A model generated the notes under the pieces. It saw only the letters and a program-made list of their open reading frames with translations, was not told where the DNA came from and ran no database searches. Positions 4,255 through 63,921 of a stretch of 64,000 nt of DNA are shown in pieces (position 1 is the stretch's first letter; every line of letters starts with the position of its first letter). The stretch comes from Candidatus Methylomirabilota bacterium. GTDB lineage: Bacteria > Methylomirabilota > Methylomirabilia > Methylomirabilales > Methylomirabilaceae. The DNA lies in NCBI GenBank assembly GCA_016207095.1, contig JACQQF010000070.1, forward strand, positions 1 through 64,000. Direction: 5' to 3'. The position numbers and the translations under genes were made by a program.

Positions 4255-6531
4255 ATGCCACGCCGTCTCTTGGGTCGTCTGCTAATCCTCCTCGCCCTCT
4301 CATTCTTCTATTCCATTCCAGTGGTCTCAGCTCAGGAGACCGGGACCCGCGATCTTCTCAATCAGATCAAGGAGCTCAAATCGATCGTCAGGATCGAGGC
4401 TGATGAGCTGGAACGCCGCGAACGGGACAAGCTCACGATCGCGAGGGGTGATGTCCGCATCCAGATGGAGAACCGTGTCCTGTACGCCGACGAGATCGAG
4501 TTGGACCAGGTTCAGGAGGTGGTTCGGGCCCGGGGGAGGGTCCAACTCATCGAGGGGGCGAAGCGGCTGGATGGTGACCGGTTCGACTATCAGTACCGCG
4601 AGAATACCGGCGTCATGTACCAGGCGCGCGGGACGATCCCCCCTGCCACCGTCTTTCAAGGCGTCGAGATCCATAAGGAGGGGGAGCGGACATATCGCCT
4701 GGTCGACGGACGCTTCACCACCTGCCGCATCTGCCAGCCCGAACCCGGCGGGGTCGATGTAGAGGTCCGGGCCAAAGAGGCGGTCCTCGAGCAGGACGAG
4801 TATTTCGACGCGAGATGGGCGTCGTTCTGGGTCCGCGGCGTCCCGTCACTCGTCAGCCCCTATCTGATCTATCCTATCAGGGAGCGGCGCACCGGCTTCC
4901 TGCTTCCACGGATCGGGTACAGCGATCTGTCGGGCTACACCTACACGCAACCCTTCTTCTGGGCTATCTCGGAATCTCAAGACCTGACACTTAGCGGCGT
5001 CTACCGGACCAAGCGTGGGGTTGAGGGCGAGGCGAACTACCGGTATATCCTCGGGCCGGAGGCGGTGGGATCGATCGATGTCAGGGTGATCCAAGATCTG
5101 AAAAGCACGACGCAGGACAAGATTAAGACGACCGTCACCGCTCGCCACGATCAGCAGTTTAACCCGGAGCTGAGCCTGAAGGCCGACGTCAATTATGTGA
5201 GCGACCGAATCATCCAGCGAGAGTTCGCAGAGACCCCATCCGAGCTGAGGACCGCGAACCTCGCAAGCTCCAGGGTCTTCATGACCCAACTGTGGCAGAA
5301 TTATGGCCTGCAGTTATTAGTCGAGGATACCAAAGCCCTCACGGCAACAAGCGACAGCAGGTTTCGGCGCCTGCCCGAGTTGAGCCTCTCGGCCTTCCCT
5401 CAGCGACTGTTTGGGTCGCCTGTCTTTTTCGAGATGGACGCGTCCGGCACCTATCTTGAGCGGAACGACGTTCCGGATGGTGGCCGGGCCGATCTGTTTC
5501 CGAAACTCTCCGCGCCCTGGCGGCTGTTCCCCTGGATGACCATGACCCCCTCGGTTGGCGTTCGGGAGACCGCCTACACGAAGCGTGGGGATGGGGGGGA
5601 GGGTGGAGTGACGCGTGAGCTGTTTGAGGCTCGCAACTCGCTGGAGGCTCGCTTCTATCGAAGCTTTCAGGTCGGGGGTGAGCGCGTCGATCGGCTCGTT
5701 CATCTCGTGGAGCCGCGCGTGAATTACTGGTATATCAACCCGATCGATCAGCAAGAGCTTCCACAGTTTGATCGTGTCGATTTCATCAGCCCCCAGAATA
5801 GGGTCATGTACTCCCTCACCAACCGTCTCTTGGCCAAGATCAAGGAGACTGACGGTTCCGTCAGGACCCACGAGGTCGCTTCACTCTCGCTGAGCCAGAG
5901 TCTCAACCTGAACCCCCGAGAGCGAACCTTCTCCGACCTGTTTCTGAGCGCGCTGACTCCGGAACGGATCGACCAGGCGGTCCGTGAGGAGTCGGCCCGA
6001 CCCCTGGGGAACGGGTTCTCGTTGGCGCAAGAGCGTCGCCTCTCAAACTTGGTCGCCGCCGTCCGCGCCTCGCCCTTCCGGTACCTGGCCTTCCAAGGGA
6101 TCGCAGCCATCAACACTGAATCAGATCGGGTCGATGGGATCGAGGCCGGAGTCCGGTTCACCTATCCGGAATACGGGTGGGTGGAGATGGCCCACAGCTT
6201 CATCCGTGGTGGGGAGACGGCGGGGCTCCTCGGGCCCTTCCAGGATCGAGAGACCTCTGGGGTGGTGAGCCGGTTCCTCTTCACTCCGATCAAGAACCTC
6301 GCCATCAACTACCTCGGCCGCTATGATTCCCTCAATGATAGAAGCCTGGAGAACAATGTGGTCGTGACCTACGGCACCTGCTGCTGGCTGATGGGAATCC
6401 AGTATGTCAATCGTGAGGTGATCCCGGGGGTCAGAGGATCGGAAGACAGTATCAGCTTCTTCTTCGAACTGCTGACCGGAGGCGCGCCCGCACCTCCGGA
6501 ACGAGGGGCGCGAGAGCTCACGCGGCGCTGA
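4255..6531 (+). CDS. lptD: LPS-assembly protein LptD (OstA)
   Basis: Outer-membrane beta-barrel that, with LptE, inserts lipopolysaccharide into the outer leaflet. From the ATG at 4255 the protein is 758 aa and opens with a signal peptide (MPRRLLGRLLILLALSFFYS, cleavage near VVSAQE). An OstA/LptA-like beta-jellyroll follows (ADELERRERDKLTIARGDV, VLYADEIELDQ), then the long C-terminal barrel domain (SPYLIYPIRERRTGFLLPRIGYS). It ends in a beta-strand-like FFFELLTGG followed by a short tail. The 57-nt ORF-track extension from GTG 4198 lies almost on the predicted transcription start and would precede the signal peptide, so it is rejected. The gene stands alone between two promoters. Confidence 0.9.
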   Translation: MPRRLLGRLLILLALSFFYSIPVVSAQETGTRDLLNQIKELKSIVRIEADELERRERDKLTIARGDVRIQMENRVLYADEIELDQVQEVVRARGRVQLIEGAKRLDGDRFDYQYRENTGVMYQARGTIPPATVFQGVEIHKEGERTYRLVDGRFTTCRICQPEPGGVDVEVRAKEAVLEQDEYFDARWASFWVRGVPSLVSPYLIYPIRERRTGFLLPRIGYSDLSGYTYTQPFFWAISESQDLTLSGVYRTKRGVEGEANYRYILGPEAVGSIDVRVIQDLKSTTQDKIKTTVTARHDQQFNPELSLKADVNYVSDRIIQREFAETPSELRTANLASSRVFMTQLWQNYGLQLLVEDTKALTATSDSRFRRLPELSLSAFPQRLFGSPVFFEMDASGTYLERNDVPDGGRADLFPKLSAPWRLFPWMTMTPSVGVRETAYTKRGDGGEGGVTRELFEARNSLEARFYRSFQVGGERVDRLVHLVEPRVNYWYINPIDQQELPQFDRVDFISPQNRVMYSLTNRLLAKIKETDGSVRTHEVASLSLSQSLNLNPRERTFSDLFLSALTPERIDQAVREESARPLGNGFSLAQERRLSNLVAAVRASPFRYLAFQGIAAINTESDRVDGIEAGVRFTYPEYGWVEMAHSFIRGGETAGLLGPFQDRETSGVVSRFLFTPIKNLAINYLGRYDSLNDRSLENNVVVTYGTCCWLMGIQYVNREVIPGVRGSEDSISFFFELLTGGAPAPPERGARELTRR

Positions 6532-13225: not shown

Positions 13226-13729
13226 ATGACCGTCATCCAAGTTGTGTTCTTCCTGGTGGCCGCTTTCACCACGGCGGCAGCGTTCTTGGTGGTCCTGGCG
13301 AAGAATATCGTGCACTGCGCCATCGCGCTGGTCTTTACCTTCTTCGGTGTGGCTGCCCTGTACGTCCTCCTCGATGCCGAGTTCCTGGCGGCGGTCCAGG
13401 TGCTCTTGTACGTGGGTGGCATCACCATCCTTCTGCTCTTCGCCATCATGCTGACCAGCAGGATCTCCGCCCGAGGCGTCAGGGTCATGAATGAGCAGGT
13501 GGGGATGAGCGCCGTGGTGGTGTTCGCCATCTTCGCGCTGTTGGCCATTGCCAGCCTGAAGGGGTTCGCCCTTGTCGGTTCACCCCCTCCCGCGTCGTAT
13601 GCCACGGCCTCGCTCGGGCGGCTGTTGCTGACCACATACGTCCTTCCGTTCGAGGCGGTGTCGATCCTGCTCCTGGCAGCGATGGTGGGCGCCATCATCC
13701 TGGCTCGACGTGAGCGGGAAAAGGATTGA
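13226..13729 (+). CDS. nuoJ: NADH-quinone oxidoreductase subunit J (copy 1)
   Basis: 167-aa membrane subunit with five predicted helices. The third helix shows [22 protein letters not shown], the family hallmark that forms the pi-bulge. The C-terminal helix [18 protein letters not shown] is typical. Shine-Dalgarno GGGAG precedes the ATG. Its stop lies 4 bp before the preferred nuoK start. Adjacent to nuoH because nuoI is absent. Confidence 0.92.
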
Positions 13730-13733
13730 GGCG

Positions 13734-14042
13734 ATGGTTCCACTCTCCCACTACCTGATTCTGAGCGCGGTCCTCTTCGCCATAGGGATGTTCGGTGCCC
13801 TGACCCGCCGCAACGCCATCGGGATCCTGATGGCGCTTGAGTTGATGTTCAACGCCGTCAACTTGAACTTCGTGGCATTCTCTCGTTATCTCCCATCCAC
13901 GATGCTTCAGGGGCAGATTTTTGCCATCTTCGTCATTACCATCGCGGCAGCGGAGGCGGCGGTGGGACTGGCGATCGTCCTCGGGCTCTACAGAAACTTC
14001 AAGACGATCAACGTGGACGAAATCAATCTGATGAAATGGTAG
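13734..14042 (+). CDS. nuoK: NADH-quinone oxidoreductase subunit K (copy 1)
   Basis: 102-aa subunit with three helices. The start is placed at ATG 13734, giving the standard [22 protein letters not shown]-terminus. The ORF track runs back to 13710 inside nuoJ. Both proton-channel glutamates are visible ([16 protein letters not shown] and [12 protein letters not shown]). Followed by a 160-bp heptamer-phased repeat array before nuoL. Confidence 0.92.
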
Positions 14043-14049
14043 AAAAACA

Positions 14050-14206
14050 GTGCGGAGTGCGAAGTCCGAGGTCCGAGGTGCGATGAAGACAGTGCGAGGT
14101 GCGAAGTCCGAAGTGCGTAGTGCGATGAAGACTGTGCGAAGTGCGACGTGCGACGTGCGAAGTGGAAAGAAGCGCACCCCGCACCCCGCACCCCACACCC
14201 CGCACC
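14050..14206. repeat. Heptamer-phased inverted array, GTGCGAA family (nuoK1-nuoL1)
   Basis: About 157 bp divides cleanly into 22 consecutive 7-mers. The left arm is mostly GTGCGAA, GTCCGAG and GTGCGAC, with GAAGACA/T interruptions that recur every 42 bp. The right arm is ACCCCGC repeated, roughly the inverse complement. It would fold into a long imperfect hairpin. The short frames in it are not proteins. Confidence 0.85.
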
Positions 14207-14216
14207 GGTCACAACC

Positions 14217-16187
14217 ATGAAACTTGTGCTGCTTGTGCCATTGCTCCCGCTGGTCGGGGTTCTGATCAACGGTCTGTTCGGAGCGAAGATCAGAGGGCGG
14301 GCCCATCTTGTCGCGGTCTCCGCCTCGGGGTTGTCCTGCCTTGTGGCGTTCCTGGTCTTTTTCCAGGCGGCCGGTGGCAGGGTTCTCGATTGGGACCTCT
14401 ACTCCTGGCTGAAGGTTGGCGACTTCCGCGTGCCGGTCGGGATCCTCGTAGACCCGCTCTCGGTGGTCATGATGCTGGTGGTCACATTCGTCGGCTTTCT
14501 CATTCACGTCTATTCGATCGGCTACATGCACGACGACCGCAGCTACGCCCGTTTCTTCACCTACCTCAATCTCTTCATGTTCTCCATGCTGGTGCTGGTG
14601 CTGGCCAATAATTATCTCCTGATGTTTCTCGGGTGGGAGGGGGTCGGGCTCTGTTCCTATCTTCTGATCGGCTTTTGGTATGAGAAAAAGTCCGCCGCCG
14701 ACGCCGGCAAGAAGGCGTTCATCGTCAACCGGATCGGGGATGCTGGGTTCTTGCTCGGGCTCTTCCTCATCTGGAGCGTCTTCGGGTCGCTGAAGTACAG
14801 TGAGGTCTTCAAGGCGGTCGATCCCGCTCTTGGCACGGGGATCTACACCGCTATCACGCTCCTGCTGTTCGTCGGCGCGATGGGAAAATCGGCCCAGCTT
14901 CCGCTCTATGTCTGGCTCCCGGATGCCATGGAAGGGCCTACGCCGGTCTCCGCCCTGATCCATGCTGCCACGATGGTGACGGCGGGCGTCTATATGGTGG
15001 CGCGCTCGAGCCCCCTGTTTGACCTCGCCCCGTTCAGTCTCGAAGTGGTGGCCTGGGTCGGCGCGCTCACCGCCGTCTTCTCCGCCACGATCGCGCTGGT
15101 CCAGAATGACATCAAGCGGGTCGTCGCCTATTCGACCATCTCGCAGCTCGGCTACATGTTTCTGGGCGCGGGTGCCGGCGCCTATGCGTCGGCCATCTTT
15201 CACCTGGGAACCCACGCGTTTTTCAAGGCGCTCCTCTTTCTCGGTGCCGGCTCCGTCATTCATTCGCTGCACGGAGAGCAAGACATCCGGAAGATGGGCG
15301 GGCTGTGGAAGGCGATGCCGATCACTGCCTGGACCTTCCTCCTGGCTTCCCTTGCGAACGCCGGGATCTTTCCCCTTGCCGGCTTCTGGTCGAAGGACGA
15401 GATCCTCTTCAATACCTTTAAGCATGGGATGACGGTCCCCTGGCTTCTGGGTCTCATCGGCGCCTTCCTCACGGCGTTCTATATGTTCCGTCTCTTCTTT
15501 TTGGTGTTCGCCGGTCGGTTCCGAGGCGGTGCCCACGCAGCCCAACACCTGCACGAATCGCCGCCCAACATGGCGTATCCCTTGGTGGTCCTCGCCTTCT
15601 TTTCCGTCACCGTGGGGCTGGTGTTCGGGTTCCCTCCGGACCATGGGATATACCATCGTTTTGTCGCCCCGATGTTCGAAGCCGTTCATGAAGCGGCGGG
15701 AAAGGCGGCGCACGCCTCGCTCTCATCGGAGGTTAGCATGGCCGGGCTCTCCTTGACCATCGCGCTCCTGGGGGTCCTTTTAGCGTATCAGTTTTACATG
15801 AAGAAGCCGGAGCTGCCCGGCCTGCTGGCTAACCGGATGAGGGGCGTCTACGCCCTGTTGCTGAACAAGTACTGGGTGGACGAACTGTATCAGGCGATCT
15901 TCGTCAACTTTGGCAAACGCGTGTGCGCCTTCCTCTGGGGAGTCGATGCCGGAGTTGTTGACGGCGCGGTGAACAGAAGCAGTTGGCTGACGGTGCGTCT
16001 GAGCTTTCTCTCGGCCTGGAACGACCTGAAGATCGTGGATGGGATGGTGAATAGTATCGCCGACCTCATCCAGGGTGGAAGCCTCAACCTCCGTCGGCTC
16101 CAGACGGGCATTGTCCAGAACTACATTTTGGCCATGTCGTTGGGGATCCTCGGCATGCTCGTTCTCTATCTCTTTGTATTCCGCTAG
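14217..16187 (+). CDS. nuoL: NADH-quinone oxidoreductase subunit L (copy 1)
   Basis: Antiporter-like proton-pumping subunit, 656 aa from ATG 14217. The 23 extra residues of the ORF track are translated heptamer repeat and are excluded. It contains MFLGWEGVGLCSYLLIGFWY with the key Glu, KSAQLPLYVWLPDAMEGPTPVSALIHAATMVTAGVYM (channel Lys and His), and the long amphipathic C-terminal helix region ending in a last membrane helix. No Shine-Dalgarno is present because the repeat array abuts the start. Translation may rely on coupling or a leader structure. Confidence 0.93.
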   Translation: MKLVLLVPLLPLVGVLINGLFGAKIRGRAHLVAVSASGLSCLVAFLVFFQAAGGRVLDWDLYSWLKVGDFRVPVGILVDPLSVVMMLVVTFVGFLIHVYSIGYMHDDRSYARFFTYLNLFMFSMLVLVLANNYLLMFLGWEGVGLCSYLLIGFWYEKKSAADAGKKAFIVNRIGDAGFLLGLFLIWSVFGSLKYSEVFKAVDPALGTGIYTAITLLLFVGAMGKSAQLPLYVWLPDAMEGPTPVSALIHAATMVTAGVYMVARSSPLFDLAPFSLEVVAWVGALTAVFSATIALVQNDIKRVVAYSTISQLGYMFLGAGAGAYASAIFHLGTHAFFKALLFLGAGSVIHSLHGEQDIRKMGGLWKAMPITAWTFLLASLANAGIFPLAGFWSKDEILFNTFKHGMTVPWLLGLIGAFLTAFYMFRLFFLVFAGRFRGGAHAAQHLHESPPNMAYPLVVLAFFSVTVGLVFGFPPDHGIYHRFVAPMFEAVHEAAGKAAHASLSSEVSMAGLSLTIALLGVLLAYQFYMKKPELPGLLANRMRGVYALLLNKYWVDELYQAIFVNFGKRVCAFLWGVDAGVVDGAVNRSSWLTVRLSFLSAWNDLKIVDGMVNSIADLIQGGSLNLRRLQTGIVQNYILAMSLGILGMLVLYLFVFR

Positions 16188-16296
16188 CAGGTTCCAAGTG
16201 TCCAGTTCCATGTGCCATGCTCCGGGTTCCGGGTTGAGAGAAAGGCCCAGTAACCTGGAACCTGGAACCTGGAACCTGGAACTCGGAACAGGAGGC
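16188..16296. repeat. Heptamer-phased inverted array, GGTTCCA/ACCTGGA family
   Basis: The left arm has GGTTCCA, AGTTCCA and GGTTCCG units; the right arm has four ACCTGGA units in tandem, then ACTCGGA. The period is 7 bp and the arms are inverse complements. The array ends in AGGAGG, which probably serves as the nuoM ribosome site (12 nt before the ATG). Confidence 0.8.
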
Positions 16297-22975: not shown

Positions 22976-23012
22976 GGAGTGCGGTGTGCGAAGTGCGAGG
23001 TGCGCAGTGAAG
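22976..23012. repeat. Heptamer-phased repeat, GTGCGAA family (nuoD2-nuoE)
   Basis: Five or so degenerate 7-mers (GTGCGGT, GTGCGAA, GTGCGAG, GTGCGCA) directly after nuoD. Only the left arm is obvious. Confidence 0.6.
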
Positions 23013-23492: not shown

Positions 23493-23560
23493 CTGTCAGC
23501 CATCAGCGGTCAGCGTTCTTGCTGAAGGCTGACGGCTGAACGCTGAATGCTCTTGAGATC
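23493..23560. repeat. Heptamer-phased inverted array, GTCAGCG/CTGAACG family
   Basis: Seven-bp units: left arm GCTGTCA GCCATCA GCGGTCA, right arm GGCTGAC GGCTGAA CGCTGAA. The arms are inverse complements around a GCGTTCTTGC centre, in the nuoE-nuoF gap. Confidence 0.75.
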
Positions 23561-25861: not shown

Positions 25862-26371
25862 ATGGAGTGGTTGCTCTTCGTTCCGCTGGCCGCGCTGGCG
25901 CTCGGCACCGCTGCGTTTGTCATCCTGCTCCGGAATCCGATTTACTGCGCCCTTGCCCTCGTTGGAACCTTCTTCGCGCTTTCCGGGCTCTATCTCCTCC
26001 TGCAGGCTGAGTTCGTCGCTGTGGTGCAGGTCATCATCTATGCCGGAGCGATCATGGTCCTCTTTCTTTTTGTGATTATGTTGCTGGACGTGGGACACGA
26101 ACCGCCCCCCTGGCTTCGGCGAGATCGGCCCAGATTACTGCTGGGGCTCGGCCTGGTCGCTCTTCTGGTTCTTGAGCTGGCTGTCGCCATCGGGTCCTGG
26201 ATTGCTCCGGGCATCCGGGGACCTTACACATCCGACTATGTCAATGCGGTCGGGAATACCCAGCTCATTGGCCGTCTCCTGTTCACCGAGTTCCTGATCC
26301 CCTTCGAGATCACCTCCATCATCCTCCTCATCGCCATCGTTGGGGCGATGGTATTGGCCAGGAGGCAGTGA
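25862..26371 (+). CDS. nuoJ: NADH-quinone oxidoreductase subunit J (copy 2)
   Basis: 169 aa from ATG 25862. The ORF-track start at 25664 lies inside nuoH in another frame. Five helices, with AVVQVIIYAGAIMVLFLFVIMLL as the hallmark third helix and ITSIILLIAIVGAMVLARRQ at the end. Its RBS overlaps the nuoH stop. The stop is followed immediately by a GTGCGGG repeat. Confidence 0.94.
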   Translation: MEWLLFVPLAALALGTAAFVILLRNPIYCALALVGTFFALSGLYLLLQAEFVAVVQVIIYAGAIMVLFLFVIMLLDVGHEPPPWLRRDRPRLLLGLGLVALLVLELAVAIGSWIAPGIRGPYTSDYVNAVGNTQLIGRLLFTEFLIPFEITSIILLIAIVGAMVLARRQ

Positions 26372-26407
26372 GGTGCGGTGCGGGGTGCGGGGTGCGGGGT
26401 GCGAGGG
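26371..26407. repeat. Heptamer-phased repeat, GTGCGGG family (nuoJ2-nuoK2)
   Basis: GAGGTGCG, then GTGCGGG three times in tandem and GTGCGAG. The 7-bp period ends 4 bp before the nuoK ATG, and its GAGGGG may act as ribosome site. Confidence 0.7.
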
Positions 26408-26410
26408 GCC

Positions 26411-26725: not shown

Positions 26726-26826
26726 GAGGTCCGTAGGGGCGACCCGCTGGGTCGCCCGTACGAGGTGCGGGGTGCGAAAAACCTCGCACTTCGCACTTCG
26801 CACGTCGCATGTCGCACATCTGGCCC
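26726..26826. repeat. Composite repeat: GTAGGGGCGACCC palindrome within a GTGCGAA heptamer array
   Basis: At 26733-26761 lies a 29-bp near-perfect palindrome (GTAGGGGCGACCCG / GGGTCGCCCGTAC). It is embedded between left-arm heptamers (GTCCGAG, GTGCGGG) and a right arm of tandem CGCACTT, CGCACGT and CGCATGT units. The right arm runs into the start of nuoL. Confidence 0.75.
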
Positions 26827-28746: not shown

Positions 28747-30264
28747 ATGAGCCAGGCGGCCGGGCCGATCCTGTCAACCCTCATCGCGCTTCCCCTACTC
28801 GGGGCCATGCTGCTCGTCCTGGTAGATGGGGCGCGGGAGGGGCTCATCAAGCGGATCGCGCTGGCCGTCTCCTGCCTGGGTTTCCTCCTCTCCCTGATCG
28901 TGTATGGCCGCTTTGACCCCACAGTTGCCGGGATGCAATTTGTAGAGCGTGTCCCTTGGATCAGCTCGATCGGGAGCAGTTATGTCCTCGGGGTAGACGG
29001 GATCAGCCTTCCGCTGCTGCTCCTCACCACGTTCTTATCGCCGGTCGCCATTCTCGCGTCCTTCTCCGGCATCCCGCGCAGGCTGAAGGGGTTCATGATT
29101 TGCATGCTCCTGTTGGAGGGGGGAATGATCGGGGTGTTTCTGGCCCTGGATCTTCTTCTGTTCTACGTGTTCTGGGAGGGGACGTTGATCCCGATGTATT
29201 TTCTGATCGGGATATGGGGCGGCCCTCGGCGTATCTACGCCACCCTGAAGTTCGTGCTATTTACGATGGCCGGGAGCGTCCTGATGTTGCTGGCGATGAT
29301 CGCCCTGGCGGTTCTGCATCGAAGTACCACAGGTCGGCTGAGCTTTGACCTCCTGGAATTGATTGGCGCTGCGATCCCGTTCGGGCTTCAAGTGTGGCTA
29401 TTTGCCGCCTTTGCCCTCGCCTTTGCCATTAAAGTGCCGATGCTCCCGTTTCATACCTGGCTTCCCGACGCCCATGTGGAGGCTCCCACCGCGGGAAGCG
29501 TGCTGTTAGCGGGGGTCCTTCTAAAGATGGGGACCTATGGCTTCCTCCGGTTCGCGCTCCCGCTCTTCCCGGCAGCGGCCGCCGCCTTCTCTCCACTGAT
29601 CTCGGTGCTCGCGGTGATCGGCATCCTGTACGGCGCACTGGTCTCGCTGGCGCAGGACGACCTCAAGCGGCTGGTAGCCTATAGCTCGGTGAGCCACCTG
29701 GGGTTCGTGATGCTGGGGATCTTTGCCATGAATCTGCAGGCGGTGGAGGGCTCGATCCTTCAAATGGTGAATCATGGTCTTTCCACCGGCGCCCTCTTTC
29801 TGTTGGTTGGAATGATCTATGAGCGGCGTCACACCCGAATCATAGGGGAGTTCGGTGGGCTCAGCCGGGTCATGCCCAGGTTTGCTCTCTGTTTCCTGGT
29901 CGTGGCGATGTCCTCTATCGGGCTTCCGGGGCTGAACGGGTTTGTGGGGGAGTTCCTGATCCTGGCGGGCACCTTCCGCGTCCACAGAGGGTTCGCGATC
30001 CTCGCCACCGTCGGGATCGTCTTGGCGGCGGTCTATATGCTGTGGATGTGGCAGCGCGTGATGTGGGGGGAGAGTCGGCGTTCGCAGAATCTCGATCTTC
30101 ACGATCTTCGCCCCCGTGAGATAGCGATGTTGGTTCCGACGATCCTGCTCATTCTCTGGATCGGTCTCTTCCCGAATCACCTCCTCAGAAAGATGGATGC
30201 CTCAGTGACTCATCTCCTTGGCGGAGTGCGAGGTGCGACGTCCGAGGTGCGGGGTGTGAAATAA
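28747..30264 (+). CDS. nuoM: NADH-quinone oxidoreductase subunit M (copy 2)
   Basis: 505 aa. YVFWEGTLIPMYFLIGIWG, FAIKVPMLPFHTWLPDAHVEAPTAGSVLLAGVLLKMGTYG and LKRLVAYSSVSHLGFVMLG are all in place. The last ~15 residues (GGVRGATSEVRGVK) come from a GTGCGAG-type heptamer repeat, so the true protein tail has been replaced or extended. The stop TAA shares one base with the nuoN ATG. Confidence 0.95.
   Translation: MSQAAGPILSTLIALPLLGAMLLVLVDGAREGLIKRIALAVSCLGFLLSLIVYGRFDPTVAGMQFVERVPWISSIGSSYVLGVDGISLPLLLLTTFLSPVAILASFSGIPRRLKGFMICMLLLEGGMIGVFLALDLLLFYVFWEGTLIPMYFLIGIWGGPRRIYATLKFVLFTMAGSVLMLLAMIALAVLHRSTTGRLSFDLLELIGAAIPFGLQVWLFAAFALAFAIKVPMLPFHTWLPDAHVEAPTAGSVLLAGVLLKMGTYGFLRFALPLFPAAAAAFSPLISVLAVIGILYGALVSLAQDDLKRLVAYSSVSHLGFVMLGIFAMNLQAVEGSILQMVNHGLSTGALFLLVGMIYERRHTRIIGEFGGLSRVMPRFALCFLVVAMSSIGLPGLNGFVGEFLILAGTFRVHRGFAILATVGIVLAAVYMLWMWQRVMWGESRRSQNLDLHDLRPREIAMLVPTILLILWIGLFPNHLLRKMDASVTHLLGGVRGATSEVRGVK
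30221..30260. repeat. Heptamer-phased repeat encoding the NuoM2 tail
   Basis: GGAGTGC, GAGGTGC, GACGTCC, GAGGTGC, GGGGTGT: a 7-bp period, GTGCGAG family, translated as the C-terminus of NuoM2. Confidence 0.65.
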
Positions 30265-34496: not shown

Positions 34497-34612
34497 TAGC
34501 CAGCAATCAGCCGTCAGCAATCAGCCGTCAGCGGTCATCAAAGAAACCATCAGCCTTCAGCAACCAACTCTTAGCTGAATGCTGAGCGCTGATGGCTGAC
34601 GGCAGTTCTCTG
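34497..34612. repeat. Heptamer-phased inverted array, CAGCCGT family (upstream of ubiD)
   Basis: Left arm GTCAGCA ATCAGCC GTCAGCG..., right arm TGAATGC TGAGCGC TGATGGC TGACGGC. The period is 7 bp and the arms are inverse complements. It occupies the ubiD 5' flank and recurs in nuoE-nuoF and pilB-pilT. Confidence 0.8.
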
Positions 34613-34778: not shown

Positions 34779-34890
34779 GTTTGGCTTCGCGGTTCCAGGT
34801 TCCATGTTCCGGGTTGCGAGTTCGCCAACGCGTGAAATGTTCTTCAACGTGGAACCCGGAACTTGGAACGTGGAACACTTGTCAACGAGG
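34779..34890. repeat. Heptamer-phased inverted array, GGTTCCA/ACTTGGA family (glnD leader)
   Basis: GGTTCCA GGTTCCA TGTTCCG GGTTGCG on the left and ACGTGGA ACCCGGA ACTTGGA ACGTGGA on the right, phased at 7 bp. Same family as the nuoL1-nuoM1 array. It would form a long hairpin in the glnD leader RNA, just before the start codon. Confidence 0.8.
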
Positions 34891-40499: not shown

Positions 40500-40502
40500 T
40501 GA

Positions 40503-40568
40503 CCATCAGCGTTCAGCCATCGGCGGTCAGCAGGCGTGCGGCTGTTAGCTGATTGCTGAGCGCTCACC
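40503..40568. repeat. Heptamer-phased inverted array, GTCAGC family (pilB-pilT)
   Basis: Units such as CATCAGC GTTCAGC CATCGGC GGTCAGC, with an inverse arm GCTGTTAGCTGATTGCTGAGCGC. Same family as the arrays at nuoE-nuoF and upstream of ubiD. Confidence 0.7.
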
Positions 40569-40579
40569 TTGAGGTGCGC

Positions 40580-41656
40580 ATGAATCTGCACGAGATGTTG
40601 AAGGAGATGGTGGACCGGGGCGCTTCCGATCTTCATCTCACCACCGGTGCCCCCCCCACGCTCCGTCTGCACGGCCTGATGTTGCCGCTTGGCGAATCTC
40701 CCCTGACTCAGGCGGAAACCAAAAGCCTGGCCTACAGTGTCCTGACTGATGCCCAGAAGCAGAAATTCGAAGAAGAGAAGGAGCTCGATCTGTCCTTCGG
40801 GATCAAAGGTCTCAGTCGCTTCCGGGCCAATGTCTACGTTCAGCGCGGAGCTGTGGGGATCGCGATCCGAACGATCCCGTACGCCATTCGCACCTTCGAA
40901 GAATTGGGCCTTCCCAAGGGTGTGGCCGATCTCTGCGAGAAGCCAAAAGGCCTGATCCTCGTGACAGGTCCGACCGGGTCAGGGAAATCGACGACACTTG
41001 CCACGATGATCGACAAGATCAACTCCGAGCGACATGAGCACATCGTGACGATCGAAGACCCCATCGAGTTCATGCACTCGAATAAGCAGTGCATTGTCAA
41101 CCAGCGGGAGCTGCACTCCGACACGCGATCGTTCTCGGAGGCGCTCAGGCGCGTCTTGAGACAAGATCCTGACAAGGTCCTCATCGGAGAGATGCGGGAT
41201 CCGGAGACGATTCAGACGGCGCTCACCATCGCCGAGACGGGGCACCTGACGTTTGCGACGCTCCACACCAACTCGTGCGTGGAAAGCATTAACCGCATCA
41301 TCGACGTCTTTTCTCCTCACCAGCAGTCGCAGGTCCGCGCCCAGCTCTCGCTCGTTTTGGAAGGGGTGCTGTGCCAGGCGCTCATCCCCAGAAGCGATGG
41401 CCAGGGGCGTGTGCTGGCCTTGGAAATCATGATCCCGAACCCTGCCATCCGTAATCTGATCCGCGAAGACAAGGTCCACCAGATCTACTCGGCCATGCAA
41501 ACCGGCCAGGAGAAGTTCGGAATGCAGACCATGAACCAGTCGCTCCTCGCTCACCATTTGAGGAGGACCATCACGCTCGAGGAGGCGATTCGAAGGAGCA
41601 CGATGCCGGACGAGCTGATGCAGATGATCCAGCGGGCCCAGAAGACGAGGGTATAG
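40580..41656 (+). CDS. pilT: Type IV pilus twitching/retraction ATPase PilT
   Basis: 358 aa from ATG 40580 (MNLHEMLKEMVDRGASDLHLTTGAPPTLRL, the normal N-terminus). The ORF track begins 9 codons earlier in repeat sequence. Walker A VTGPTGSGKSTTLATMID, Asp box EDPIEFMHSNKQCIVNQRE, Walker B region PDKVLIGEMRDPETIQTAL, His box HLTFATLHTNS and the AIRNLIRE motif of retraction ATPases (NPAIRNLIREDK) are present. Depolymerises pili for twitching. Confidence 0.95.
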   Translation: MNLHEMLKEMVDRGASDLHLTTGAPPTLRLHGLMLPLGESPLTQAETKSLAYSVLTDAQKQKFEEEKELDLSFGIKGLSRFRANVYVQRGAVGIAIRTIPYAIRTFEELGLPKGVADLCEKPKGLILVTGPTGSGKSTTLATMIDKINSERHEHIVTIEDPIEFMHSNKQCIVNQRELHSDTRSFSEALRRVLRQDPDKVLIGEMRDPETIQTALTIAETGHLTFATLHTNSCVESINRIIDVFSPHQQSQVRAQLSLVLEGVLCQALIPRSDGQGRVLALEIMIPNPAIRNLIREDKVHQIYSAMQTGQEKFGMQTMNQSLLAHHLRRTITLEEAIRRSTMPDELMQMIQRAQKTRV

Positions 41657-41750
41657 GTATAAGCTAGAGTGCAAAGGGTATAGGGTAGAGGGTATAGGGT
41701 TAAGTAGAAGAGAGGGCTTCTATACCCTAACCCCTAAACCCTGCCTTAGA
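41657..41750. repeat. Heptamer-phased inverted array, GGGTATA/CCCTAAA family (pilT-pilC)
   Basis: GGGTATA GGGTAGA GGGTATA GGGTTAA on the left; TATACCC TAACCCC TAAACCC on the right, with a short AGTAGAAGAGAGGGC centre. 7-bp phasing and inverse arms, but a sequence unrelated to the other families and more AT-rich. Confidence 0.85.
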
Positions 41751-59859: not shown

Positions 59860-60102
59860 CTAGTGCCGTTCCAACTATTTACGCCTAAATGGTAAGGCCG
59901 GGGAAAGCGATAGTTCTTAGCACGACCCCTGTCGTCGGTTAGTGCCGTTCCAACTTTTTGGGCAAAAGGACATCTCTTGGCGATTAGTGCCGTTCCAACT
60001 TTTTGGGCAAAAGGACATCTCTTGGCGATTAGTGCGGTTCCAACTATTTGGGTAACAGAACATCTCTTGGCGATTAGCCGCAACAAGTTGGAACGGCACT
60101 AG
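59860..60102. repeat. YTAG-flanked inverted-repeat element, copy 5, with internal 45-bp tandem repeats
   Basis: 243 bp, CTAG at both ends. It contains a normal left part, then three tandem 45-bp units (59939-59983, 59984-60028, 60029-60073), each beginning TTAGTGCSGTTCCAAC and ending CATCTCTTGGCGA, then the standard right end. As 45 is a multiple of three, the reverse strand shows a 15-residue repeat peptide; I do not consider it a gene. Confidence 0.85.
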
Positions 60103-61716: not shown

Positions 61717-61797
61717 TCAGAGGTGCGAAGTGCGAAGTGCGAAGTGCGTACCCCGCACATCGCACCCCGCACCCCGCACATCGCGTTTCGCACGCCC
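61717..61797. repeat. Heptamer-phased inverted array, GTGCGAA family (GT2-GT4)
   Basis: GTGCGAA three times and GTGCGTA on the left; CCGCACA TCGCACC CCGCACC CCGCACA TCGCGTT on the right. A 7-bp period. It abuts the start of the GT4 gene and is read by the ORF track as its N-terminus. Confidence 0.85.
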
Positions 61798-63024: not shown

Positions 63025-63921
63025 ATGGCCTCGATGCAGCGGTTGGTCGATGAATACCTGGAATATCTGACGGTCGAGCGTGGACTGGCCGAGAACAGTG
63101 TCGCCGCGTACGCCAGAGACCTCCGTCGGACGGTAGGCTACCTCACACACGCGGGGGCAACCGCCTTCCCGGAGGTGAGTCGCGGGCTGGTGGCACGTCT
63201 GCTCTTCTGGCTGCGAGCGGAGGGGCTGGCCCCCCGGACTGTCGCGCGGCATGTCGCGTCGTTGCGTGGTCTGTTTCGATATCTGCTGACCCAGGGCTAT
63301 GTGAAGGACGACCCCACCGCCCACCTCGAATCACCGAGCCCATGGACGCGCTTGCCGGGGGCGCTGAGCGAGGAGGAGGTGGAACGGCTGCTCGGGGCTC
63401 CACTGACAAGCGATCATGCGGGTATCCGGGACAAGGCGATGCTGGAGTTGCTGTATGCCGCCGGCCTTCGAGTGTCGGAGTTGGTGAGCCTCCGCCTGTC
63501 CGATGTTGACCTTGAGGTGGGCTATGTCCGGTGCCATGGCAAAGGCTCCAAGGAGCGCGTCGTTCCCCTCGGTGCCAAGGCCCAGTCGTGGGTCCGCAGG
63601 TACCTTGCCTCGGCGAGGCCGCGTCTGTCCAAGGGCAGGATGAGCCCCGCGCTCTTCTTGAATCGCCTTGGTCGGGCCTTGACGCGACAGGGACTGTGGA
63701 AGATTTTCCGGTCCTATGCGAGGGCGGCAGGGATCGACCGTCCTGTAAGCCCTCACACGCTCCGCCACTCATTTGCCACCCACCTCCTCGAGCGCGGCGC
63801 CGATCTACGAGCCGTCCAGATGATGCTGGGGCACGCCGATATCTCGACGACTCAGATCTACACCCATGTCTCCCGGGCACACCTGAAAGCTGTCTACGAT
63901 CGATATCATCCGCGGGCATAG
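63025..63921 (+). CDS. xerD: Tyrosine recombinase XerC/XerD
   Basis: 298 aa. N-terminal SAM-like core-binding domain (LVDEYLEYLTVERGLAENSVAAYARDLRR). The catalytic domain has all active-site residues: Arg in AAGLRVSELVSL, Lys in CHGKGSKERVVPLG, His-x-x-Arg in PHTLRHSFATHLLERGADLRAVQMMLGHADI and Tyr in STTQIYTHVS. Length and motifs match the housekeeping XerC/D pair that resolves chromosome dimers. XerC versus XerD cannot be settled here. ATG start 20 bp after the palindrome; the window ends soon after. I see no gene in 63922-64000. Confidence 0.92.
   Translation: MASMQRLVDEYLEYLTVERGLAENSVAAYARDLRRTVGYLTHAGATAFPEVSRGLVARLLFWLRAEGLAPRTVARHVASLRGLFRYLLTQGYVKDDPTAHLESPSPWTRLPGALSEEEVERLLGAPLTSDHAGIRDKAMLELLYAAGLRVSELVSLRLSDVDLEVGYVRCHGKGSKERVVPLGAKAQSWVRRYLASARPRLSKGRMSPALFLNRLGRALTRQGLWKIFRSYARAAGIDRPVSPHTLRHSFATHLLERGADLRAVQMMLGHADISTTQIYTHVSRAHLKAVYDRYHPRA

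Follow-up and report, generated by a model that had tools for sequence, protein, structure and literature searches.

The 64-kb window, by which we mean the whole stretch of Methylomirabilota DNA that was analysed, carries two operons for complex I (nuo) in tandem at 10108-31718, and the nuoK|nuoL border of each bears a heptamer array. In the first operon the array (14050-14206) lies in the gap between the nuoK stop codon upstream (14040-14042) and the nuoL start downstream, near 14217-14220. Its 157 bp can be read directly as 22 successive heptamers plus three bases, in a single phase that holds from the opening GTGCG through the short centre to the final CGCACC. Tandem Repeats Finder reports periods of 7 (16.6 copies) and 42 (2.8 copies, 84% matches), in agreement with the 22 heptamers and the 42-bp pattern described in the initial annotation of this DNA. 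The features of the window are collected in Table 1.

Table 1. Heptamer arrays of the window and one adjoining element (z, folding z-score; G-numbers, related genomes).
Feature	Position	Strand	Setting and remarks
Main array, 5' arm	14050..14161	+	GTGCG-NN / GTCCG-NN units plus two GAAGACA/GAAGACT-type units (last base A or T), one 7-bp phase, 42-bp higher-order pattern
Main array, centre between arms, GTGGAAAGAAG	14162..14172	+	
Main array, 3' arm	14173..14206	+	CGCAC-CC units
Convergent GTTCC ... GGAAC array	16190..16290	+	nuoL|nuoM gap; z = -4.5; same word in G004, G009, G011
Single-arm GTGCG array	22976..23011	+	nuoD2|nuoE2 gap; no hairpin; GTTTC array at same border in G002
Convergent TCAGC ... 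GCTGA array	23493..23553	+	nuoE2|nuoF2 gap; z = -4.1; same word in G002 and G004
Single-arm GTGCG array	26371..26409	+	spans nuoJ2 stop / nuoK2 start region; G002 likewise GTGCG
REP-like palindrome	26731-26763		directly before GTGCG array 26764..26818
Convergent GTGCG ... CGCAC array	26764..26818	+	nuoK2|nuoL2; gap z = -5.3; GTTCC arrays here in G011, G002
Single-arm GTGCG array	30221..30260	+	within 3' end of nuoM2 reading frame
Convergent TCAGC ... GCTGA array	34497..34606	+	divergent gap, ubiD-type gene (minus) / glnD-type gene (plus); z = -3.9
Convergent GTTCC ... GGAAC array	34779..34880	+	same ubiD-type/glnD-type divergent gap; z = -5.3
Short convergent TCAGC ... GCTGA array	40500..40562	+	between two T2SSE-type ATPase genes; z = -2.3
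Convergent AGGGT ... ACCCT array	41648..41745	+	between T2SSE-type and T2SSF-type genes; z = -2.8
Convergent GTGCG ... CGCAC array	61717..61793	+	3' of glycosyltransferase-type gene; z = -5.3

Eleven further arrays with the same phase and inverted arms had been proposed along with the main one. All twelve are present; nine possess both arms, but those at 22976, 26371 and 30221 lack the second. The accompanying claim that the arrays sit at gene borders is supported. Seven of the twelve lie at gene borders or gene ends of the two nuo operons, which were recognised by Pfam; the array at 30221 lies inside the 3' end of the nuoM2 reading frame, and those at 34497 and 34779 share one divergent gap. 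Neither Rfam families nor tRNAs were found in the 64-kb window, and the arrays are therefore not housed in a tRNA-Leu group I intron. The window also contains a 45-bp tandem repeat at 59939-60077 (3.1 copies, 94% matches, unit TTAGTGCCGTTCCAACTTTTTGGGCAAAAGGACATCTCTTGGCGA), whose motif TAGTGCCGTTCCAACTT also flanks a heptamer array at L151:11780; the repeat therefore probably belongs to an element dispersed in the genus. Near the window end, a tyrosine recombinase gene (Phage_integrase) occupies 63025-63921.

Arrays were counted in 35-bp windows showing at least 24 of 35 matches at a given lag. Thirteen stretches of the 64 kb passed at lag 7, five at lag 14 and one at lag 6, whereas the other lags between 3 and 15 gave none; in five simulated third-order Markov sequences no stretch passed at lag 7. 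In 463 kb of this genome (G000) we counted 49 arrays at lag 7, 27 at lag 14, 12 at lag 21, five at lag 12 and two at lag 6; the remaining lags from 2 to 20 were empty, i.e., no array fell outside the multiples of 6 or 7, and a fifth-order Markov control again returned none at lag 7. The census covers stretches of genome, and the density in G000 is an upper estimate, since some of the 463 kb was picked on contigs already known to bear matches; nine lag-7 arrays were found in 400 kb of the congener G006, picked blind. Used as a BLAST query, the main array has 51 matches in its own genome. The two checks that the initial annotation had called for, periodicity against randomised sequence and arrays elsewhere in the genome, both came out in its favour. 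Beyond the genus, 1.27 Mb of sequence around nuoL from many phyla contained 44 arrays at lag 7 versus nine at lag 8 and none or one at lags 10, 11 and 13, with lags 6, 9 and 12 also raised (15-20 each). At the same loci (two Methylomirabilota records left out) inverted arms occur with other words, which indicates that the geometry is not peculiar to the genus, and adjacent segment pairs match at six or more of seven positions in 14 of 47 cases, against 1.3% of pairs taken across different loci.

The unit of these arrays consists of a 5-base core followed by two looser bases. The left arms are built on the cores GTGCG, GTTCC, GTTTC, GTTCA, AGGGT, TCAGC and GTGTT, the right arms on their reverse complements, and the centres between arms are unlike from locus to locus. 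When two runs of one word lying less than 100 bp apart in opposite directions were scored as an arm pair, 67 pairs were convergent (core first, then complement) and none divergent, namely 35:0 in G000, 8:0 in G006 and 24:0 at the nuo loci of relatives; whole-genome listings of G009 and G011, inspected by eye, show the same polarity. Lag counts and arm pairs together bear out the view, already taken in the initial annotation, of one geometry spelled in several words, with inverted arms and a near-exclusive 7-bp period. Gene positions were taken from our own simple gene finder, which called 474 genes and 87% coding sequence in the G000 sample. The arrays are mainly non-coding (36% of array bases are coding), 30 of the 33 intergenic ones stand between co-directional genes, and many begin no more than ~25 bp after the stop codon of the gene upstream.

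The predicted RNA folds of the arrays are ladders of 5-bp helices. The z-scores, each based on few shuffles, are -2.2 or lower for nine of the ten gaps in the window, the exception being the gap of the single-arm array at 22976, and the co-directional gaps of G000 have a median z of -3.0 with an array versus -0.04 without one (p = 1.7e-4). Hairpin strength is not special to arrays at nuo borders, and we rejected this idea: array-free borders there fold equally well through other hairpin elements, which in relatives comprise REP-like GTAGGGGC..GCCCCTAC palindromes, AATCCCCCC..GGGGGG and GTCATTCCCGCGAAAGCGGGAATCC; the contrast across the genome stands. If the arrays have a function, then, the hairpin itself probably provides it, whatever the element. 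A transcription-oriented asymmetry of the spacer bases in GTGCG elements was likewise dropped: it looked strong when units were counted but did not reach significance when each element counted once (11 of 17 one way, sign-flip p = 0.07). The arrays might also share the ability to form G-quadruplexes, as considered for the GGGAATC repeats of Xanthomonas. Four G-runs can occur in AGGGT arms and in arms whose spacers are GG, and the motif occurs in the arrays at 14050, 26371 and 41657; it is present, however, in just eight of 46 G000 arrays, and the words GTGCGAA, GTTCAAC and TCAGC cannot form a quadruplex. We consequently reject the quadruplex as a shared principle, an idea with hardly any probability left, and it may hold for a subset.

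NuoL relatives place this genome of a methane-oxidising bacterium in Methylomirabilota (NC10), probably in Ca. Methylomirabilis; apart from congeners they include several named records with 59-64% identity in the best segment, two of which are NC10/Methylomirabilota. Word usage was compared with 14 congeners (G001-G014) gathered through their NuoL proteins, most of them draft assemblies, with G006 as a closed genome of 2,752,854 bp. Each genome holds several words, in proportions that amount to dialects. Triples of GTGCGNN occur 177 times in G000, against 20 in G011, which is its nearest relative, 10 in G002 and 0-6 in the other 12 congeners, and none were found outside the genus; GTTCC triples number 79 in G011, 23 in G000, 19 in G002 and 0-3 elsewhere, and AGGGT triples are present in all congeners, a reversed control pattern giving no match. 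The initial annotation had called these sequences unrelated, which does not hold: GTGCG, GTTCC, GTTTC, GTTCA and AGGGT have a common polarity and are joined within single arms by mosaics that differ by one base and keep the phase, and four of the words swap at orthologous borders. Arms combining two words in phase include GTTCC+GTTTC (18), GTATA+GTTTA (13), GTGCC+GTTCC (9), GTTCA+GTTCC (6), GTTCA+GTTTA (6) and GTGCC+GTGCG (4). In the outgroups G015 and G026, nearly all AGGGT matches read AGGGTTC or AGGGTTG and contain GTTCAGG in another register; these heptamers thus link the GTTCA class with the AGGGT class. With less certainty, TCAGC may join the chain via GTTCAGC, seen in one mixed array (L168:11212). 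One-base steps of this kind do not by themselves prove descent, for which the switches at orthologous borders are the stronger evidence. Runs of AGGGTTT occur in G009 (C22:301416-301462); this is also the heptamer of Arabidopsis-type telomeres, and the match is probably coincidence.

At the nuoK|nuoL border the word differs between genomes: GTGCG in G000, GTTCC/GTTTC in G002, GTTCA in G009, G011 and G013 (with a centre recognisably common to G009 and G011), ACACTCA in G006, AACCCCC in G008, GTCCA in G015 and G026, GTTCA(CA) in G016 and CATCAGC in G019; G004 and G005 have no array there. The comparison of G000 with G011 covered 15 borders, the L164 region, with few matches in G011 and G002, lying outside it. 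The word is the same at nine borders and different at six, in every case with GTGCG in G000 against GTTCC, GTTCA or GTTTC in G011; G002, with data for four of the six, has GTTCC or GTTTC there as well. The switch hits both arms wherever two arms exist, and at L152:3904 the limits of the array coincide, with GTGCG in G000 and GTTCC/GAAAC in G002. GTGCG, GTTCC, GTTTC and GTTCA thus replace one another at orthologous borders; AGGGT (two sites) and TCAGC (nuoE2|nuoF2) are mostly fixed at the sites compared, and GTTCA is also unchanged at two sites. When consensus heptamers are compared pairwise, 33% of pairs from the same border in different species agree at 6-7 of 7 positions, 31% of pairs from different borders of the same species and 15% of other pairs, and none of 2000 permutations reached either excess, which together point to inheritance in place and to sharing of words across the genome. 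The initial annotation had proposed a mechanism that reads the period and not the sequence; the period is indeed constant, but words are shared across the genome above chance, which implies that sequence information moves between places. Two further observations come from the L152 region. The GTGCG array at L152:7719-7817 is ~97% identical between G000 and G002 in flanks of just 73-81%, a sign either of strong constraint or of recent transfer of the array alone, and dispersed elements of ~140-180 bp (L152:2741-2879, 4428-4605, 13404-13556) have tens of copies in G011 and G002.

We favour, with a probability of roughly 0.55, the reading that these arrays are degenerate heptamer hairpins spread over the whole genome, which grow by 7-bp slippage, are homogenised between loci and are kept self-complementary. 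With a core in the 5' arm and its reverse complement in the 3' arm, transcripts that run over operon borders would fold into 5-bp helices with interruptions of 1-2 nt. Slippage or unequal recombination would lengthen and shorten the arms by 7 bp at a time, as the strict phase, the 42-bp blocks and the unequal arms suggest. Point mutation would create unit variants that take over arms; the in-phase mosaics display such variants side by side, and the order of events is our reconstruction. A variant that has become common would then displace others at many loci, in keeping with the dialects and switches, most simply by recombination between arrays, and the joint switching of arms would preserve complementarity through selection on the hairpin or correction between arms. 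The function would most likely be weak and generic, that of an inter-cistron mRNA hairpin affecting stability, processing or relative expression.

A purely mutational origin would dispense with function and exchange altogether: slippage would favour 7-nt steps, perhaps set by the footprint of the polymerase, arrays would accumulate in any intergenic DNA that tolerates them, and each locus would drift alone. The over-representation of heptamers and the polymerase-footprint idea go back to Mrazek et al. 2007, as described in a passage of PMC4679880; the heptamer excess with other words in other phyla follows this published general trend (PMC4679880), and the words GTTTC, GTTTT and GTGTT at the nuoD|nuoH border look like small-step drift at one place. 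Independent drift, however, predicts neither word sharing within a genome nor joint switching of arms, nor the absolute convergent polarity, nor the genus-wide AGGGT and TCAGC cores, and we hold this account to be improbable, while leaving it some weight.

Several facts weigh against the favoured hairpin reading. Spread by recombination between loci has left no direct trace, the centres being unlike at each locus and no shared flanks having been seen, and GTGCG and GTTCC arrays have little sequence in common on which ordinary homologous recombination could act. At the nuo borders, species without arrays fold equally well by means of other hairpin elements. Selection on hairpins alone leaves the absolute polarity unexplained, a divergent pair being just as able to fold, and the near-identity of the L152:7719 array in G000 and G002 fits poorly with fast turnover everywhere. 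A trans-acting machinery for writing words, neither RAYT nor RVT_1, might renew or convert convergent arrays in place throughout the genome, so that many hairpins of one lineage come to be spelled in a single new word, in both arms, while period, polarity and borders are kept; we consider it rather unlikely. Another agent would be a REP/RAYT-type transposase or a telomerase-like reverse transcriptase that carries a heptamer template and adds words at both ends of a break, the arrays being non-autonomous mobile elements. The copies are dispersed with fixed polarity, and adding one word at each of the two 3' ends of a break would yield exactly the convergent order. Yet RAYT (Y1_Tnp, PF01797) has no match in G000 (95% complete), G011 or G002, and the RVT_1 model (PF00078), used alone for reverse transcriptases, likewise has none in these three, though G000 is the richest in GTGCG arrays, and each locus has its own centre. 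RAYT transposase or RVT_1 reverse transcriptase is unlikely as the agent, and mobile elements of this kind are a very improbable source of the arrays. Binding sites of a sequence-specific DNA- or RNA-binding protein whose specificity shifts between species would account for the dialects and for a core better conserved than the two spacer bases. Dozens of sites would nevertheless have to change in parallel by selection, every genome holds several words, and no candidate protein was identified, so that we give this explanation little credence.

The persistence of inverted arrays might be linked to SbcD, a part of a nuclease that cuts DNA hairpins. In 11 of 12 genomes, the closed G006 included, canonical SbcD is either missing or scores below the cut-off: none above the family cut-off was found in G000, G002, G005, G006, G008, G011, G015, G022 and G026, with 13 of 14 control genomes matching, and the weak matches in G000 and G009 resemble other Mre11-type metallophosphoesterases. 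Loss of SbcCD might let inverted arrays persist, which we offer as a lead only, since G013 has a match above the cut-off and bears arrays nonetheless.

That bacterial tandem repeats favour a seven-base period has been on record since 2007, with no cause yet put to the test. In this genus the same borders bear one geometry spelled in different words, and the switches can be located between sister species; the spread of words, the matching of arms and selection on hairpins thereby become separable by genome comparison. Should loci truly share their words, this would represent a little-studied concerted evolution of very short dispersed bacterial repeats. There is also a practical warning: in environmental genomes such arrays shape a large part of the short gaps between genes, and they extend or create reading frames.

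To our knowledge, obligatory convergent arms have not been described for the Cyanobacterial STRR, which the initial annotation had named as nearest analogue; the analogy is a fair one. Like the STRR of Calothrix and Anabaena, as far as they are treated in PMC4692102, the present arrays are short tandem heptamers of several word classes dispersed in one genome; they differ in belonging to Methylomirabilota and in using words (GTGCG, GTTCC, AGGGT, TCAGC) other than the STRR consensus. Marine Beggiatoaceae possess many intergenic TAACTGA arrays per genome, at gene starts, but in one fixed word and as direct repeats, with a single inverted case and no pairing (PMC4679880). In open-licence literature, our search found no genome-wide interchange of words, dialects or two-arm switches at orthologous borders. 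The GGGAATC system of Xanthomonas comes close: its intergenic heptamer arrays number in the hundreds and seldom lie between divergent genes, each genome has about 70 convergent pairs, and length and sequence vary at the same genes among close relatives (PMC4692102). It shares with ours the convergence of paired arrays (here 67:0) and turnover at the same genes, and differs in having one G-rich word, discussed as a quadruplex, for which word switching is not described (PMC4692102). In the P6b stem of the Nostoc trnL (tRNA-Leu UAA) intron, the heptamers of Class I (TDNGATT) and Class II (NNTGAGT) are two words for the same hairpin, one of which has repeatedly displaced the other in place, with length varying by whole repeats (PMC4476775, PMC3488679). 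Degenerate heptamer arms that pair (in predicted folds here) and replacement in place are common to both systems, and the two marks of heptanucleotide long simple sequence repeats (LSSR), a 7-nt tandem unit above chance and a mainly non-coding position, are found in our arrays; Nostoc, however, has one intron locus and two words, whereas here many borders per genome, at least six words and species dialects are involved, and no intron. Accordingly, heptamer repeats, convergent pairs (in Xanthomonas) and the switching of motifs at a single intron of Nostoc were already known, and the arrays of this genus are a genome-wide variant of them.
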